The position numbers and the translations under genes are program-made. A DNA stretch of 64,000 bases, taken from Cobetia amphilecti (GTDB lineage Bacteria; Pseudomonadota; Gammaproteobacteria; Pseudomonadales; Halomonadaceae). This document shows, one piece after another, positions 13,578 through 18,666 of the stretch. Within the stretch, counting starts at the first letter, position 1, and each line of letters opens with the position of its first letter. The notes under the pieces are model-generated. The model saw only the letters and a list, made by a program, of their open reading frames with translations. It did not search any database and had not been told where the DNA came from. The stretch is taken from positions 1,302,001 to 1,366,000 of the forward strand of contig NZ_CP084115.1 of the NCBI RefSeq assembly GCF_020217465.1. Reading direction: 5' to 3'.

Positions 13578-14740
13578 GACGCCAGTGTATCCCACGTCGG
13601 ATGACGGTCGATAATGCGCGACTTCGTTCGGGGCTGGCTCTGTGTGAACCGAGCCGAGTGCTGCTTGCCGGCCGTGGTGTCCTGCTGGTGCTCCTTCTCT
13701 CCCTCTATCTACTCCCTTCTCCTTTCCCTTCCTCCACTCCCACTCTCTGCTCTCTCTGTCTTCTCGCTCCTTTCCCTCACTCGCCACTCTTTACCCGACC
13801 CTTTACGCCAGCCTAGCGCTGCTCACGCGACACTTTCTCGCCGTTTTCTTGACGCTCTTCCACCACGTTCTGCCGTCCACCGCCGGAAATGCGACGGCCG
13901 TCCCCAGGCTGTCATCATTTTGACATCGTTGCATGGGTCGCCTAAGCGATTGAAAACGTTGAGATTACTTCGCGTGGGTGGGTGAGGGTGCTTCAGTCCG
14001 GGTTGGAAGAGCGCTGAATTGATTCGATGAGAGAATCAATCCTGTTCCGGCGCGGGGATATATCCCGCGGCTCGCGAGGTTCACAATGCACTCCATCAAC
14101 GTTGCAGCAAATATGCAGGGCTGATGAGGCGGTATTGACCTCGAGCTCTTGGTTGTCGAGCGACATGAATCTTCTCGACATCAGTGGGCAAGGCGTCACC
14201 GACTGACAGTGTGAGGGGCAGAATCCACACCCTGAACAATCGGTCAATGAATATTCGTAAAGATTGATGTGCACAATTTCTTGCTGCTAGACGCTGTTTT
14301 CAGGCGTCTCAGCCAAAGCAGAAAGAAAAATACGCATTTTCTTGTTTTTGTGGCATCCAGTTCTGCTGTGGCGACGTATAACTCATCAGCACAGCAAGAC
14401 ACACCCTGCAGCGTGCAGCATGTTCGACCAAGGTGGTGGGCGAGACACTGTCTTCCTCAACCAAAGTCGATAGTGATCTGCCAGGCCGAAGCGCCGCTCA
14501 AGGGGATGGGCCAGCACGCAAACAAGGAATTCTTGCACTCTCCATGTTGTACAAGTCTTTTTCAGAACCGCTGCAATAGCTTTATGGGTGATGAGAGGGG
14601 CAGTAGGGGCAAGCGCTGGGGAAGGCCGTTCGTTTCCAGTGGCGTTGCTCAAAGAGAAACAGTGAGCTTCCAGTTGCACGGCTAGTTTGAGCGCAGCATA
14701 ACAATTAGTCTGTTAATAATCGAAACGCAGCACGCACCAC
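13578..14740. other. Gene-poor region with a polypyrimidine tract
   Basis: More than 1.1 kb with no gene I can support. From about 13685 to 13805 the plus strand is almost pure C/T (runs of TCTC, CCTT). From about 14260 the sequence becomes AT-richer than its surroundings and holds a hairpin (GACGC at 14291-14295 with GCGTC at 14305-14309). Open frames of 90-140 codons occur on both strands but lack ribosome sites and family resemblance. It may hold regulatory DNA or an RNA gene for the downstream cluster. Confidence 0.55.
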
Positions 14741-14795
14741 AGTCAGTGAAGGCCAGGACCCGGACAGGGGTCAGCAAACCACTCCTTCACTGACT
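14741..14795 (+). promoter_or_regulatory. Nested inverted repeat in the leader of the paralogue array
   Basis: AGTCAGTGAAGG at 14741-14752 is exactly complementary to CCTTCACTGACT at 14784-14795. The loop holds a second hairpin (GACCC 14757-14761 with GGGTC 14768-14772). It ends about 50 bp before the first gene of the array and has no T-tail, so it looks like a leader RNA structure or an operator rather than a terminator. Confidence 0.65.
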
Positions 14796-14844
14796 GACAA
14801 CGACTCAAAGCGGAAGCATCCGCACCAGGACCAGGAGATACACC

Positions 14845-15186
14845 ATGAAAAACATTTCCCTCAAGACTCTGATCGCTACCGTCGCCATCGCCACTGCCAG
14901 CACCTCCGTATTCGCAGCCGACGATAGCCCTGCCGCCGTGCGCGTCCAGAACGCCATCAGCAGCCAGCAGATCATGGGCCAGACTCAGCCGGCTGCCACC
15001 AGCCAGCAGGGCTTCTCCGAAACGGGCATGAGCGTTGCTGCCGGTCGCGTTGAGCAGGCGCTCAATGCTGACCACATCCGTGGCGTCGATACCGCTGCCG
15101 TGTCCCAGGCCAACGCCACCGTCAATGATCAGGGCAAGAGCGTCGCCGCTAGCCGCGTTCAGCAGCGCATCAGCGACAACGCCTGA
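14845..15186 (+). CDS. Small exported repeat protein, array member 1
   Basis: A 113-residue protein with a signal peptide ending at about residue 24 (TSVFA-A). The mature part has the family repeat: SPAAVRVQNAISSQQIMGQ, then GMSVAAGRVEQALNADHIRG, then GKSVAASRVQQRISDNA. Each unit is about 35 residues, the last being a half unit. A GGAG site precedes the ATG. It is the most divergent of four tandem paralogues and has an extra Lys/Leu stretch in the signal peptide. I recognise no known family; the charge pattern suggests amphipathic helices in the periplasm or outside the cell. Confidence 0.85.
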   Translation: MKNISLKTLIATVAIATASTSVFAADDSPAAVRVQNAISSQQIMGQTQPAATSQQGFSETGMSVAAGRVEQALNADHIRGVDTAAVSQANATVNDQGKSVAASRVQQRISDNA

Positions 15187-15273
15187 AGCAGAGTGGGCCA
15201 CGCTGACAACTCGGTGACCCCCGAACATCGCCTCACCTGACATTCGATCCTTGCCCATTTCTGGAGAATCATC

Positions 15274-15606
15274 ATGAAAACCCTGACTTCCCTGATCGCC
15301 GCCGCTGCCATTTCCATTGCTGCCACCGGCGTTGCCACCGCTGATGAAAGTGTTGCCGATGCCCAGGTGCGTGCCGCACTGAGTGAACAGGTCATCCACG
15401 GCCAGGCGCAGCCCGCCGCGACGCAGCTGAATGCTGCCGAGTCCGGCATGAGTGCCGCTGCCAACCGTGTCGAACAGTCCCTGAACGCCGACACCATCAA
15501 GGGTGAGCAGACGCACGCCGTCTCCCGCGGCCAGAGTCTGAGCAACGACAACGGCAAGAGTGTCGCGGCATCACGCTTTGAAGATGCGCTGAACGGCAAC
15601 GCCTGA
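15274..15606 (+). CDS. Small exported repeat protein, array member 2
   Basis: A 110-residue paralogue of its neighbours. The signal peptide runs to about residue 23 (ATGVATA-D). The mature part reads SVADAQVRAALSEQVIHGQ, SAAANRVEQSLNADTIKGEQ and GKSVAASRFEDALNGNA, two and a half copies of the ~35-residue unit. TGGAG precedes the ATG. The gap from member 1 is 87 bp without a clear terminator, so co-transcription is likely. There is no Cys and almost no aromatic residue, which argues against an enzyme. Function unknown. Confidence 0.88.
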   Translation: MKTLTSLIAAAAISIAATGVATADESVADAQVRAALSEQVIHGQAQPAATQLNAAESGMSAAANRVEQSLNADTIKGEQTHAVSRGQSLSNDNGKSVAASRFEDALNGNA

Positions 15607-15702
15607 GTCTGCAGGTCCTGATTCATGGCCTCAGGCCCGGGACCACAGCAGCACTGATCTCCCTTTTATCTATTCGCTATTCACTTTTTCTGGAGTCATC
15701 TA

Positions 15703-16035
15703 ATGAAAACCCTCAATGCCCTTATCGCCGCCGTTGCCCTGTCCGTGACCGCCACTGGCGTCGCCAATGCCGATAGTGTTGCCGACCAGCAGGTTCGCGC
15801 CAACATCAGTGAATCCGTGATCCACGGTCAGGCTCAGCAGGCAGCCACTCAGCAGCAGGCCATCACCGATGCAGGCAAGAGCGTTGCGGCCAGCCGTGTC
15901 GAGCAGGCGCTGAACAGCCAGACCATCAAGGGCCAGCAGGCGCAGGTCACTCGCGACACCCAGCAGTTCGTCAATGATTCCGGCAAGAGCGTTGCCGCGT
16001 CACGTGTCGAGCATGCCCTGAACGACAACGCCTGA
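15703..16035 (+). CDS. Small exported repeat protein, array member 3
   Basis: A 110-residue protein and the clearest member of the family. Signal peptide 1-23, then repeat units at about residues 25-58 (SVADQQVRANISESVIHGQ...), 59-94 (KSVAASRVEQALNSQTIKGQ...) and 95-110 (KSVAASRVEHALNDNA). TGGAG precedes the ATG. The 96-bp gap from member 2 can fold into a nested hairpin near 15616-15646. The array probably grew by unequal crossing-over. Function unknown. Confidence 0.88.
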   Translation: MKTLNALIAAVALSVTATGVANADSVADQQVRANISESVIHGQAQQAATQQQAITDAGKSVAASRVEQALNSQTIKGQQAQVTRDTQQFVNDSGKSVAASRVEHALNDNA

Positions 16036-16140
16036 TGCGTCGCGCCGTCACACTGACGGCAGCGAACAAGGACTCTGCTTGCGACCTGGCTGACCTTTTT
16101 ACCCGGTTGACCCGATAAAAGATTTCACTGGAGATATTTC

Positions 16141-16473
16141 ATGAAAATGCTCAATACCCTCATCGCCGCCACCGCGCTTTCCGTTGCTGCCACCGGTGCT
16201 GCCTTGGCAGACAGCGTCGCTGACCTTCAGGTGCGCTCTGCGCTCAGCGAATCCAGCATCCACGGCCAGGCCCAGTCCGCCGCCGCCGAGCAAGCCACCT
16301 TTGCCGATACCGGCATGAGCGTTGCCGCGGGTCGTGTCGAAAGCTCCTTGAACGATGCTGCGATCGAAGGTCAGCGCGAGACCCTGGCGTCCGACTCACA
16401 GCAATTCGTCAACGATGCTGGCAAGAGTGTTTCCGCGACTCGCGTCCAGCATGCTCTGAGCGAAAGCGTCTGA
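16141..16473 (+). CDS. Small exported repeat protein, array member 4
   Basis: A 110-residue paralogue. The signal peptide ends near AALA-D. The repeats read SVADLQVRSALSESSIHGQ, GMSVAAGRVESSLNDAAIEGQ and GKSVSATRVQHALSESV, so the final copy has drifted from the usual NDNA ending. TGGAG precedes the ATG. The 105-bp gap upstream holds a GCCGTCA/TGACGGC hairpin (16044-16060). The last codon and stop are the first bases of a 14-bp tandem repeat. Function unknown. Confidence 0.86.
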   Translation: MKMLNTLIAATALSVAATGAALADSVADLQVRSALSESSIHGQAQSAAAEQATFADTGMSVAAGRVESSLNDAAIEGQRETLASDSQQFVNDAGKSVSATRVQHALSESV

Positions 16474-16520
16474 GCCAGATTGTCTGAGCCAGGTTGTCTG
16501 ATTCAGGTTGTCTGAGCCCC
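16468..16520. repeat. 14-bp tandem repeat spanning the stop codon of array member 4
   Basis: Units of the form GTCTGAGCCAG[A/G]TT start at 16468, 16482 and 16496, with a partial fourth copy at 16510. The first unit supplies the last Val codon and the TGA stop of the gene. Confidence 0.9.
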
Positions 16521-17051
16521 GCTCTGATTCGTGACCACGCATGGCAGCAACTGACCCAAGCGTCCCCGTAGCAAGTGTCGTCATGAGCAGCAGCAAGAGT
16601 TTTAAGTAGCTAGAGCTTGAAGACATAAGGTCTTGGAGACATAAGGGCTTGGAGACATAAGAGCTCGAAGAATCAAAAGCGTGAACAAGCCAGTCGTAAA
16701 GCAGTGTCACTGACACTGATCGCCAGGTGATACCTCGTCGCGAAGTGAAACGACAGTCTGACCCTTCCTGAAATGGCCGGTATCTGTCGGGAGTCATCCC
16801 GCGCAGCGACGCCCCGTGCCTCGTACGATGACGTAGAAGGGTCCCGCCATGGGCAAGCCTGAATATCGCGCCATCGTAAACCGCATCCTTGTGGGTAGTG
16901 CTTGTTGATGGTCTTTATCAATAGGTCACGTGGGTGATGTCAGTTATCGACTCTGATAGATATCCCGCCTGGATATACCCAGTACTTGAAGTGATCAATG
17001 ATGTGTCACTTCATGGCAACTCGATAGTGAAAATGAACGGAGGATAGAAAG
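16521..17051. other. Intergenic region after the array
   Basis: About 530 bp without a supported gene. It holds a 16-bp tandem repeat at 16616-16671 and an AT-rich stretch near 16900-17040 that probably carries the promoter of the next small gene. No clear terminator is visible after the array. Confidence 0.5.
16616..16671. repeat. 16-bp tandem repeat
   Basis: Three units of CTTG[A/G]AGACATAAG plus two variable bases start at 16616, 16632 and 16648, with a partial fourth at 16664. It lies 140 bp after array member 4. Confidence 0.9.
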
Positions 17052-17318
17052 ATGATCAAGTCATTCATGACTCACGGCCTGGCAGCGTTTGCCCTCGCCA
17101 CCAGCGGTCTGGCCAGTGCCGATATCAGCACTGATGACAGCAGTAACGTGCGATTCAATAGCGCTCAATCTCACGGCATCCACAGCGAAGTGCGTGATTA
17201 TCAGAAGAGCGAAAAGCGCTACGCCGCAAATCCTGACATTCTGATCACCAGCCGTGGCAATGTGTTTGCCGATAGTGATGTGCATGGTGCAGTCGATATC
17301 GACGCTGACCATCGCTGA
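17052..17318 (+). CDS. Small exported protein of unknown function
   Basis: An 88-residue protein with a signal peptide to about residue 23 (TSGLASA-D). The mature part is polar and Ser/Asp-rich (ISTDDSSNVRFNSAQSHGIH...) and ends in an Asp-rich tail (DSDVHGAVDIDADHR). A strong GGAGG precedes the ATG. It shares the signal-peptide style and the S/H/G-rich composition of the upstream array, but not its repeat. I recognise no family. An isolated intrinsic terminator lies about 335 bp downstream. Confidence 0.72.
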   Translation: MIKSFMTHGLAAFALATSGLASADISTDDSSNVRFNSAQSHGIHSEVRDYQKSEKRYAANPDILITSRGNVFADSDVHGAVDIDADHR

Positions 17319-17907
17319 GCTTTCGATGCTGACGGTTCACACGACTCGGTTCACATGACTTCATGCCGCAAGTTGTCATTGCGAAACAATTGAAGCGCTG
17401 TGATTTGATTGCCACTGCTTGAATCACCGCGCAGCGACGATTGAAGGCGTAGGCACTGATGCGCAGCCAGTGACTACCGACATTCAGGGAGAGCGAAAGG
17501 AAATATCCCAGACGTAGAGACACTTGGATAGTGAGCAGAACGCTTGAGCAAGGGCTTTGGGACCCTCCACCATCCCCTCTAGAACGACCTGGTGGCAAAA
17601 CCCTTTCTCAAACGCTTTCCTGTCCTGGGTGTCGCTGTCCCGACATTCATTGCCCGCCACCATGGCGGGTTTTTTTATGCCCGGATTCCAGAAGGGCACA
17701 GCAAGTGGCTGGTCGACTCTGTGTATGGCACCTTGCTTGATGCCCGCAATATTCTGAGGGTTTTCCAGATGATTCGTAAGGATTCATCGGCAGTTCACTG
17801 TGTGGATGTCATGATGCATCACGGTGATTAAACGTTGTTGATTGCCGGCCTGCATGTCGGATATCCCGAGGCAGGATGCCATGATATCAATCAAGTGGAG
17901 GCCCATG
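17319..17907. other. Intergenic region holding an isolated terminator
   Basis: About 590 bp with no gene supported by a ribosome site or family resemblance. A textbook terminator at 17653-17676 stands 335 bp after the previous stop, too far to be its obvious terminator, so a small RNA between about 17400 and 17676 is possible. Confidence 0.5.
17653..17676 (+). terminator. Intrinsic terminator (possible end of a small RNA)
   Basis: A 7-bp GC-rich stem (CCCGCCA 17653-17659 with TGGCGGG 17663-17669) with a CCA loop is followed by seven Ts. It is the best-formed plus-strand terminator in this part of the window. Confidence 0.9.
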
Positions 17908-18666
17908 ATGGTGCGCGGAAAACTCAAGAAAGTGGCGGGTTCATTGGTGTTGGGCGTTGGTCTGATGTCAGGGAGTGTGATGGCGGGTGATGTCGTCGAA
18001 AAGCCCAAGGTGCTGATCTTCGATGTCAATGAAACGCTGCTGGATCTTGCCTCGATGCGCAGTTCCGTCGGCGAGGCACTGGGGGGAAGAGAAGACCTGC
18101 TGCCCCTGTGGTTCTCGACCATGCTGCATTATTCTCTGGTGTCTACCGTGACTCGGGATTACCACGATTTCGGGCAGATCGGTGTCGCCTCGTTGCGGGT
18201 GGTCGCGCAGAACAACGGTGTCGAATTGACGGATGAGCAGGCGAAGAAGGCCATCATCACCCCGTTGCTGACACTCCCGCCTCACCCTGATGTCAAGGAA
18301 GGTCTGGCCAGGCTGAAGGCGGAAGGCTACAAGATCGTCAGCCTGACCAACTCGTCCAACAAGGGCGTCCAGGCGCAGTTCGAAAACGCGGGATTGCTGC
18401 CGTATTTCGATGCGCGCTACAGCATTGAAGATATCCAGATCTACAAGCCGGACCTGCGTTCCTATGAATGGGTGCTGGACAAGCTTGATGTCGAACCCGA
18501 GGAAGCCATGATGGTCGCGGCACATGGCTGGGATGTCGCGGGCGCCAAGGAGGCGGGCTTGCAGACCACGTTCATCGCCCGCCCGGGCAAGGCATTGTTC
18601 CCGCTGTCAAAGAAGCCCGATCATGTCGTGAAGGATGTGAACGAACTGGCCGACATTCTGCAATAG
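17908..18666 (+). CDS. Exported haloacid dehalogenase type II (HAD superfamily)
   Basis: A 252-residue HAD hydrolase with an N-terminal signal peptide (KKVAGSLVLGVGLMSGSVMA-G), so it should act in the periplasm. HAD motif I is LIFDVNETLLDL (nucleophile Asp), motif II is SLTNSSNKG, the catalytic Lys is in IYKPDLRSYEWVL, and motif IV is MVAAHGWDVAGAKEAGL. This set matches type II L-2-haloacid dehalogenases, which are usually cytoplasmic, so export is the odd feature. The second of two adjacent ATGs is preferred because GGAGG is then six bases upstream. The real substrate could be a phosphate ester or haloacid. Confidence 0.85.
   Translation: MVRGKLKKVAGSLVLGVGLMSGSVMAGDVVEKPKVLIFDVNETLLDLASMRSSVGEALGGREDLLPLWFSTMLHYSLVSTVTRDYHDFGQIGVASLRVVAQNNGVELTDEQAKKAIITPLLTLPPHPDVKEGLARLKAEGYKIVSLTNSSNKGVQAQFENAGLLPYFDARYSIEDIQIYKPDLRSYEWVLDKLDVEPEEAMMVAAHGWDVAGAKEAGLQTTFIARPGKALFPLSKKPDHVVKDVNELADILQ

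Follow-up and report, generated by a model that had tools for sequence, protein, structure and literature searches.

In the genus Cobetia, small repeat proteins of two related subtypes are encoded in cassettes of conserved anatomy, in which a leader element precedes tandem genes and a structured RNA element with covarying helices follows them on the same strand, and the proteins of this family are under purifying selection. We hypothesize, with slightly less than even confidence, that such a cassette is a two-subtype module for abundant envelope or secreted proteins held in check by RNA-mediated negative feedback, similar in layout to CpxP/CpxQ and unrelated to it. As proposed, a cassette would consist of a dedicated leader, at least one head gene, at least one tail gene and then the structured RNA with its terminator. 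Expression of the array would be driven by a dedicated promoter, and the predicted products are small, Sec-exported, A/S/Q-rich proteins with three repeats, most likely abundant and non-catalytic and located in the periplasm or outside the cell, where the head and tail types may work together. We take the 3′ RNA to be, most likely, a small RNA that probably derives from the 3′ end of the transcript, and its linker, CCUGUCCUG, would cover the ribosome site of the head gene and limit head translation, giving negative feedback. A fuller version, possible but less likely than not, sees in the cassette a genus-specific, self-contained module with a heterotypic head/tail pair, in which dosage is set by copy number, translation is limited by the RNA at the array end, and protein, promoter element and RNA have co-evolved and been duplicated together.

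The window, by which we mean the whole stretch of 64,000 nucleotides that was analysed, contains one array (array 1), its flanking elements and a neighbouring gene:

14644 to 14720, + strand: conserved leader, GAAACAGTGAGCTTCCAG ... GGCTAGTT ... ATTAGTCTGTTAA, a candidate promoter/operator of the array
14825 to 14838, + strand: ribosome site of the first gene, CCAGGACcAGGAGA, the putative pairing site of the 3′ RNA linker (RNAduplex against control starts)
14845 to 15186, + strand: head-type exported repeat protein, 113 aa, first gene of array 1
15274 to 15606, + strand: tail-type exported repeat protein, 110 aa, array 1
15703 to 16035, + strand: tail-type exported repeat protein, 110 aa, array 1
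16141 to 16473, + strand: tail-type exported repeat protein, 110 aa, last gene of array 1
17522 to 17677, + strand: predicted 3′ RNA, consisting of a long stem with a variable loop, the unpaired linker CCTGTCCTG (17619–17627), a hairpin, and a terminator hairpin with a T run
17842 to 18666, + strand: haloacid dehalogenase (HAD) type II homologue with a signal-peptide-like stretch (TIGR01428, 188.5 bits, cut-off 125.4)

A first-pass annotation of this DNA had described four consecutive + strand genes of 110–113 codons at 14845–16473, each with its own ribosome site, and its coordinates agree with ours: all four genes have an ATG start and a GGAG-containing ribosome site of their own, and the other three full-length proteins are 55, 50 and 48% identical to the first, in keeping with the relatedness that had been claimed. 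The DNA does repeat at two scales, within the genes and between them, as had been noticed, and the signal peptides of the window proteins have A-x-A-like ends by eye (for instance, ANA before DSVAD in the third). This observation of a four-gene array is right but incomplete, the missing parts being a second array, a singleton, conserved flanking elements and the division into two subtypes. The genome to which the window belongs (4.16 Mb, one contig) carries nine family copies, namely two arrays of four and a singleton, and the other two sites are:

1671778 to 1673357 of the genome: second array (array 2), four genes
2464217 to 2464558 of the genome: singleton family gene

Six genomes form the genus sample behind all Cobetia-wide counts given here. 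All six, including our own, carry 8–10 copies each, 53 in total, in a sample of 58 genomes (a script run over the loci gives the same 53), and both arrays lie at conserved places in every one of them, in answer to the comparison of array copy number among relatives that the first reading had suggested. In a tree of the 53 copies, whose root is arbitrary, the head group comprises 26 copies (eight from array 1 and 18 from array 2; support 97/92) and the tail group 24 (16 from array 1 and eight from array 2; support 95/90), and three singletons sit on long branches. Mature head proteins have an ADDSPAA-like start and mature tail proteins a DSVAD-like one. The first gene is of head type and the last of tail type in all 14 leader-bearing arrays, the exception being a leaderless pair in genome G002 (L044, 3705–4448), both members of which fall in the head group. 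Arrays hold two to six genes, and the six of array 2 in G001 include near-identical copies. In the window genome, array 1 consists of one head and three tails and array 2 of three heads and one tail. On the simplest reading of these sequences, an ancestral array with a head and a tail would have been duplicated before the sampled species split, each copy then expanding another subtype. Array 1 of G002 and of G003 is split into two cassettes, with the HAD gene between their genes. The singleton is present in G000, G001 and G005; those of G000 and G005 have neither a leader nor a strong 3′ RNA match, and that of G001 is accompanied by a copy of the 3′ RNA. At one locus (L010, 6218–9101) the singleton, which there lacks adapted codons, a leader and a strong 3′ RNA match, has as neighbours, by eye, an ankyrin-like gene and a catalase-like gene whose start resembles a signal peptide. 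One head-type gene of Cobetia crustatorum (L046, 10560–10901) has an end part that looks tail-like by eye and is perhaps a gene-conversion mosaic.

Beyond Cobetia, the genomes searched gave no credible match to the repeat-protein family, which by these searches has so far been found in one genus. At E 0.001, none of 31 genomes from the rest of the bacterial family and none of 21 from other families of the order matched in the 58-genome sample. Among 275 genomes of the bacterial family, with at most the 17 best candidates scored per genome, strong matches were confined to the six Cobetia genomes, and 38 of the 269 non-Cobetia genomes gave weak matches (E 0.0014 to 0.45, the same number of candidates being scored). 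Nine weak non-Cobetia loci (L056–L064; alignments of seven) were rejected as signal peptides, compositional matches or fragments, the three-repeat pattern being absent; amid these otherwise spurious matches, L056 and L060 have a short GM..A/S..R-E stretch in common. A mature-only profile, with at most the best 13 or 14 candidates taken per genome, gave one marginal match beyond our own genome among 390 genomes of the order and one among 369 of the class, two samples that overlap, and both matches were discarded, one lying in a 5719-aa frame and one in a frame with stops. In a collection of genome contigs, a single-sequence query found no match to the family and an alignment query found two loci, both in C. 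crustatorum. Viral contigs gave no match to it either, and the two plasmid records that matched did so in the HAD gene only, none matching the repeat proteins. Among the matches listed from the Cobetia literature on proteome, transcriptome, small RNA and pan-genome, the titles and abstract openings do not describe the family, and the accessible part of PMC10887145 has zero mentions of tandem, hypothetical or signal peptide.

At the 5′ end of the cassette, one copy of the leader stands before each of the 14 arrays in the loci of the six genomes, and a search of our whole genome places it at the two arrays only. Compared across the two arrays, the leader has 79% identity (61 columns), against 21% for the other 5′ region and 65% for the head genes. 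Four comparisons across species within an array gave 77–80% for the leader and 53–70% for the other 5′ region; within array 2 the leader, at 77% against 70% and 55%, is little better kept. An imperfect dyad (GGCTAGT ... ATTAGTC) lies within the leader, which could combine a promoter and an operator. A scan for sigma-70 promoters found none in the window between 14300 and 17900 and a single weak one overlapping the array 2 leader. An RNA structure in the leader was considered and rejected, the one predicted stem having a double change in one of eight pairs; since such a stem is hardly supported, the leader is read as a DNA element. Rfam gave no match up to E 1 in 14200–16900. A hairpin at 14757–14772 (GACCCGGACAGGGGTC), in the 5′ region of array 1, recurs in all eight array-1 leaders with some paired changes (by eye), and array 2 has a different small hairpin (GGGCA..CGCCC) immediately before the ribosome site.

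With the region 3′ of the window array as query, our own genome contains just one more copy of the 3′ RNA, after array 2, and a profile found 16 copies in the loci, one for each of the 14 arrays with a leader, one for the leaderless pair in G002 and one for the G001 singleton. Each of the 16 strong copies follows a family gene on the same strand, and three are separated from it by the HAD gene. A covariance model run on the 58 genomes gave 16 matches of at least 55 bits, every one at a family locus in one of the six Cobetia genomes; weak matches only (up to 26.4 bits, E 9e-4 or worse) came from 15 other genomes, and further weak matches in the Cobetia genomes (up to 34.2 bits) fall mostly on the reverse strand of the same elements. 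A structural alignment of 15 of the 16 copies, the G001 singleton copy being left out, is predicted to fold into three helices: a long stem whose loop varies, then a hairpin, then the terminator. In a covariation test, which is biased towards the structure because this was derived from the same alignment, changes on both sides occur in seven of 34 pairs (12 cells against 2.6 in shuffles, reached by 0 of 500), the paired share of cells is 96.7%, where shuffles give 93.8% (reached by 0 of 500) and slid alignments 39–55%, and the count of further pair types is equalled by 54 of 500 shuffles. The RNA elements of our own genome also fold better than most shuffles, with z-scores of −2.2 to −4.5. By eye, no conserved promoter precedes the 3′ RNA. 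In the window this RNA begins about 1 kb beyond the array, and the HAD gene intervenes in three cassettes; hence, a single shared transcript is not assured. Rfam gave sub-threshold matches only, the best being anti-hemB (RF02837), a Burkholderia small RNA. This match, although it extends weakly across the full length of the model, scores 22.4 and 25.0 bits, below the gathering score of 49.5, and by Rfam's rule the Cobetia element is not a member.

Of the 15 aligned copies, 14 share the nine-base linker CCTGTCCTG unchanged, and the fifteenth and the sixteenth (that of the G001 singleton) differ by one base each. In both arrays, the first gene has a ribosome site complementary to the unpaired and almost unvarying segment CCUGUCCUG, above most controls, which supports, but does not prove, a regulatory reading of the linker. 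Predicted pairing of its 12-nt core with 15 head first-gene starts (14 arrays plus the leaderless pair) ranges from −12.7 to −16.4 kcal/mol (mean −14.1), these sites being homologous and therefore not independent, whereas 91 SD-bearing control starts gave −8.3 (sd 3.0), with 4 of the 91 reaching the median head, and 38 other family genes gave a mean of −6.4 (lowest −13.7). With 16-nt pieces, 8 and 13 of the 91 controls were as low as the median head, and of 500 shuffled 16-nt linkers, 4 equalled the pairing of the true linker. Pairing is weaker for the heads of array 1 in G002 and G003 (−12.7 to −13.3). In a comparison with 63 controls taken from our own genome, two equalled or beat the first gene of array 1 and three that of array 2, one of these controls being the opposite strand of the RNA itself. 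When 146 12-nt windows along the RNA were scored against both first genes and the same 63 controls, the eight best summed z-scores all overlapped the linker. The predicted pairing contains one bulged base in array 1 and an internal loop in array 2.

A simpler explanation of the downstream element is that it serves as a strong intrinsic terminator or RNA-protecting 3′ structure, or that its outer stem is a DNA palindrome, with no regulatory pairing and with a protein role independent of it. The element does end in a classical terminator, its outer stem is a long inverted repeat that could also be a protein site, and the complementarity between linker and ribosome site ranks, depending on the piece, only among the best few percent or the best 14 percent of the controls. 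We nevertheless regard this explanation as unlikely, as a terminator can do without two additional helices and an unpaired linker that hardly varies, the part with the linker and helices is 85–96% identical where the coding DNA is 62–75% identical (between and within the same arrays), and no strong copy of the RNA is found at other genes of the genome.

The reading that we favour, feedback by the 3′ RNA on the head gene, has a counterpart in Escherichia coli, where CpxQ, a product of the cpxP 3′ end, reduces the level of CpxP, most likely at translation, an effect that needed the signal-peptide region and for which no pairing site could be predicted (PMC4817254, as far as its accessible text goes). 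There, as is proposed for the Cobetia cassette, the mRNA of a small exported protein is associated with a same-strand downstream small RNA, and the Cobetia element is like the CpxQ type in its position 3′ of coding genes on the same strand (16 of 16 strong copies), in the intrinsic terminator at its end, and in combining a conserved structure with a conserved unpaired seed. Unlike CpxP/CpxQ, the Cobetia genes form paralogue arrays, the RNA of the window lies about 1 kb away, the proteins have no CpxP/Spy match, and the predicted pairing site is the ribosome site, whereas for CpxQ and CpxP none is predictable (accessible text of PMC4817254). On this comparison, the resemblance is one of layout and not of descent. 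The combination of a leader, two subtypes and a covarying RNA makes a testable layout for the question whether orphan envelope proteins bring their own feedback RNA and, if the RNA acts as proposed, it would represent a new RNA family and a sequence-unrelated example of the CpxP/CpxQ arrangement.

For the proteins, the repeat and composition statistics refer to 47 distinct mature sequences from the 53 copies. Each protein contains three copies of the core pattern S-x-A-[AD]-x-[RQ]-V-x-x-[AS]-[LI]-[SN]-x-x-x-I-x-G, and core similarity exceeds that of shuffles, no more than 2 of 200 attaining the score, in 47/47 sequences for cores 1 and 2, 45/47 for cores 1 and 3 and 47/47 for cores 2 and 3, with mean identities of 37, 37 and 47%, respectively. 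The two and a half repeat units counted previously are a fair description, because the third core copy is truncated. Mature sequences are rich in Ala (16.8%), Ser (13.3%) and Gln (10.8%), all 47 are without Cys, and F/Y/W residues average 1.8 per sequence, which bears out the reported lack of Cys and scarcity of aromatic residues; the net charge is negative in 46 of 47. Hydrophilins have a glycine content above 6% and a mean hydrophilicity above 1. A hydrophilin or LEA-like nature was rejected for the Cobetia proteins, in which glycine averages 6.2% (4.6–9.0) and GRAVY −0.47 (lowest −0.81) over the 47 mature sequences. Plain disorder is not supported, since the charge-hydropathy line places just 8 of the 47 on its disordered side. 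AlphaFold models, built from alignments of 37 full-length and 32 mature sequences, contain helices only and have mean pLDDT values of 52.8 and 56.1, a low confidence that may mean either that the proteins have no stable fold alone or that the alignment is too shallow. The hydrophobic moment of the cores is on average no better than that of shuffles and gives no indication of an amphipathic helix.

The dN/dS ratio is 0.05–0.34 in all 22 pairs computed, orthologues and paralogues alike, and the tandem family is therefore more than chance. Codon adaptation, measured against a reference of 11 ORFs around the ribosomal L2 gene that are ribosomal by place (self-scores 0.59–0.78), is 0.63–0.77 for the eight array genes of our own genome and 0.54 for the singleton; the array genes exceed 70–95% of 43 long window ORFs (mean 0.58, sd 0.10, highest 0.79), some of which may not be genes. 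An orphan family that is under purifying selection, has adapted codons and occurs in all six sampled genomes of this marine genus, yet is absent from Pfam, NCBIfam, PHROGs and the PDB sequences, is a good candidate for one with a task of importance to its owner. The non-catalytic role proposed at first sight is still favoured by the absence of Cys, the few aromatics, the A/S/Q-rich composition and the adapted codons; no result separates the surface, structural and chaperone-like roles that had been proposed along with it.

That the proteins belong to no recognised family, as the first-pass annotation had stated, holds against Pfam, NCBIfam, PHROGs and PDB sequences. The four window proteins come nowhere near a cut-off in Pfam and NCBIfam, the best matches of nine members are a single member each in PHROGs (E 0.021) and Pfam (E 0.025), and PDB sequences gave a single match with E 1.2. 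Searched at full length against NCBIfam, 37 members gave matches to BhsA in seven (best 2.5e-6), YbiJ in eight, McbA in two and PtrA in five (best 3.7e-4), whereas 32 mature members gave none to any of these up to E 0.1, the best remaining match being E 0.0042 in one member. The BhsA, YbiJ and PtrA matches are attributed to the signal peptide because they vanish for the mature sequences. Membership of DUF1471 (BhsA/YbiJ/McbA) was rejected, its matches appearing only with the signal peptide on, as was membership of the PtrA (PA2808) N-terminal domain family, which falls from 5/37 full-length to 0/32 mature sequences. The mature sequences likewise have no CpxP/Spy match.

DUF1471 proteins of the BhsA-McbA-YhcN group resemble the Cobetia family in being small, exported and multi-paralogue and in their signal peptide, but differ in that the BhsA, YbiJ and McbA matches are all lost without it; some DUF1471 proteins have three domain copies, and roles in stress and biofilm are described in the accessible part of PMC4092069. 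A periplasmic stress-protection or chaperone-like function, convergent with BhsA/McbA or Spy/CpxP, seems rather improbable for the Cobetia proteins. They are small, exported, multi-copy and free of Cys, the singleton adjoins the catalase-like and ankyrin-like genes (by eye) and the layout resembles CpxP/CpxQ (PMC4817254, accessible text), but the mature sequences match none of the BhsA, McbA, Spy and CpxP families and no site for a stress regulator was recognised.

Tandem arrays whose codons are adapted, internal repeats, and array sizes of two to six genes, some of which are almost the same in G001, would also suit building blocks of the surface or biofilm matrix, in which fibre- or layer-forming repeats are supplied in a dosage set by copy number. 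We consider this quite unlikely, as no curlin or other matrix family is matched and AlphaFold predicts no ordered fold. Curli-type functional amyloid was rejected specifically, there being no curlin among the eight Pfam families that nine members match at E up to 1. That the proteins are precursors from whose repeats signalling or antimicrobial peptides are cut is hardly credible, for although they are exported and have repeated conserved segments, no conserved dibasic or protease-like site is seen between the repeats (by eye), the spacers vary in length and sequence, and RiPP-type matches are weak and limited to one or two members.

The surroundings of array 1 had been described as a block of exported proteins of unknown role from 14.8 to 18.7 kb, a description that is right in part, as the gene at 17842–18666 has a known family, being the HAD type II homologue (TIGR01428). 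Its signal-peptide-like stretch is unusual for the haloacid dehalogenase type II family. The HAD gene is a neighbour of array 1 in all six Cobetia genomes and lies inside the bracket formed by leader and RNA in three of eight array-1 cassettes (G001, G002 block 1 and G003 block 1). Between the array and the 3′ RNA, in a region that is unaligned with G001, an ORF of 88 aa at 17052–17315 has a signal-peptide-like start and no significant Pfam or NCBIfam match. At the end of the array and just past it, 16455–16687 contains two short tandem repeats, one with a 14-nt unit (TCTGAGCCAGRTTG) and one with a 16-nt unit.
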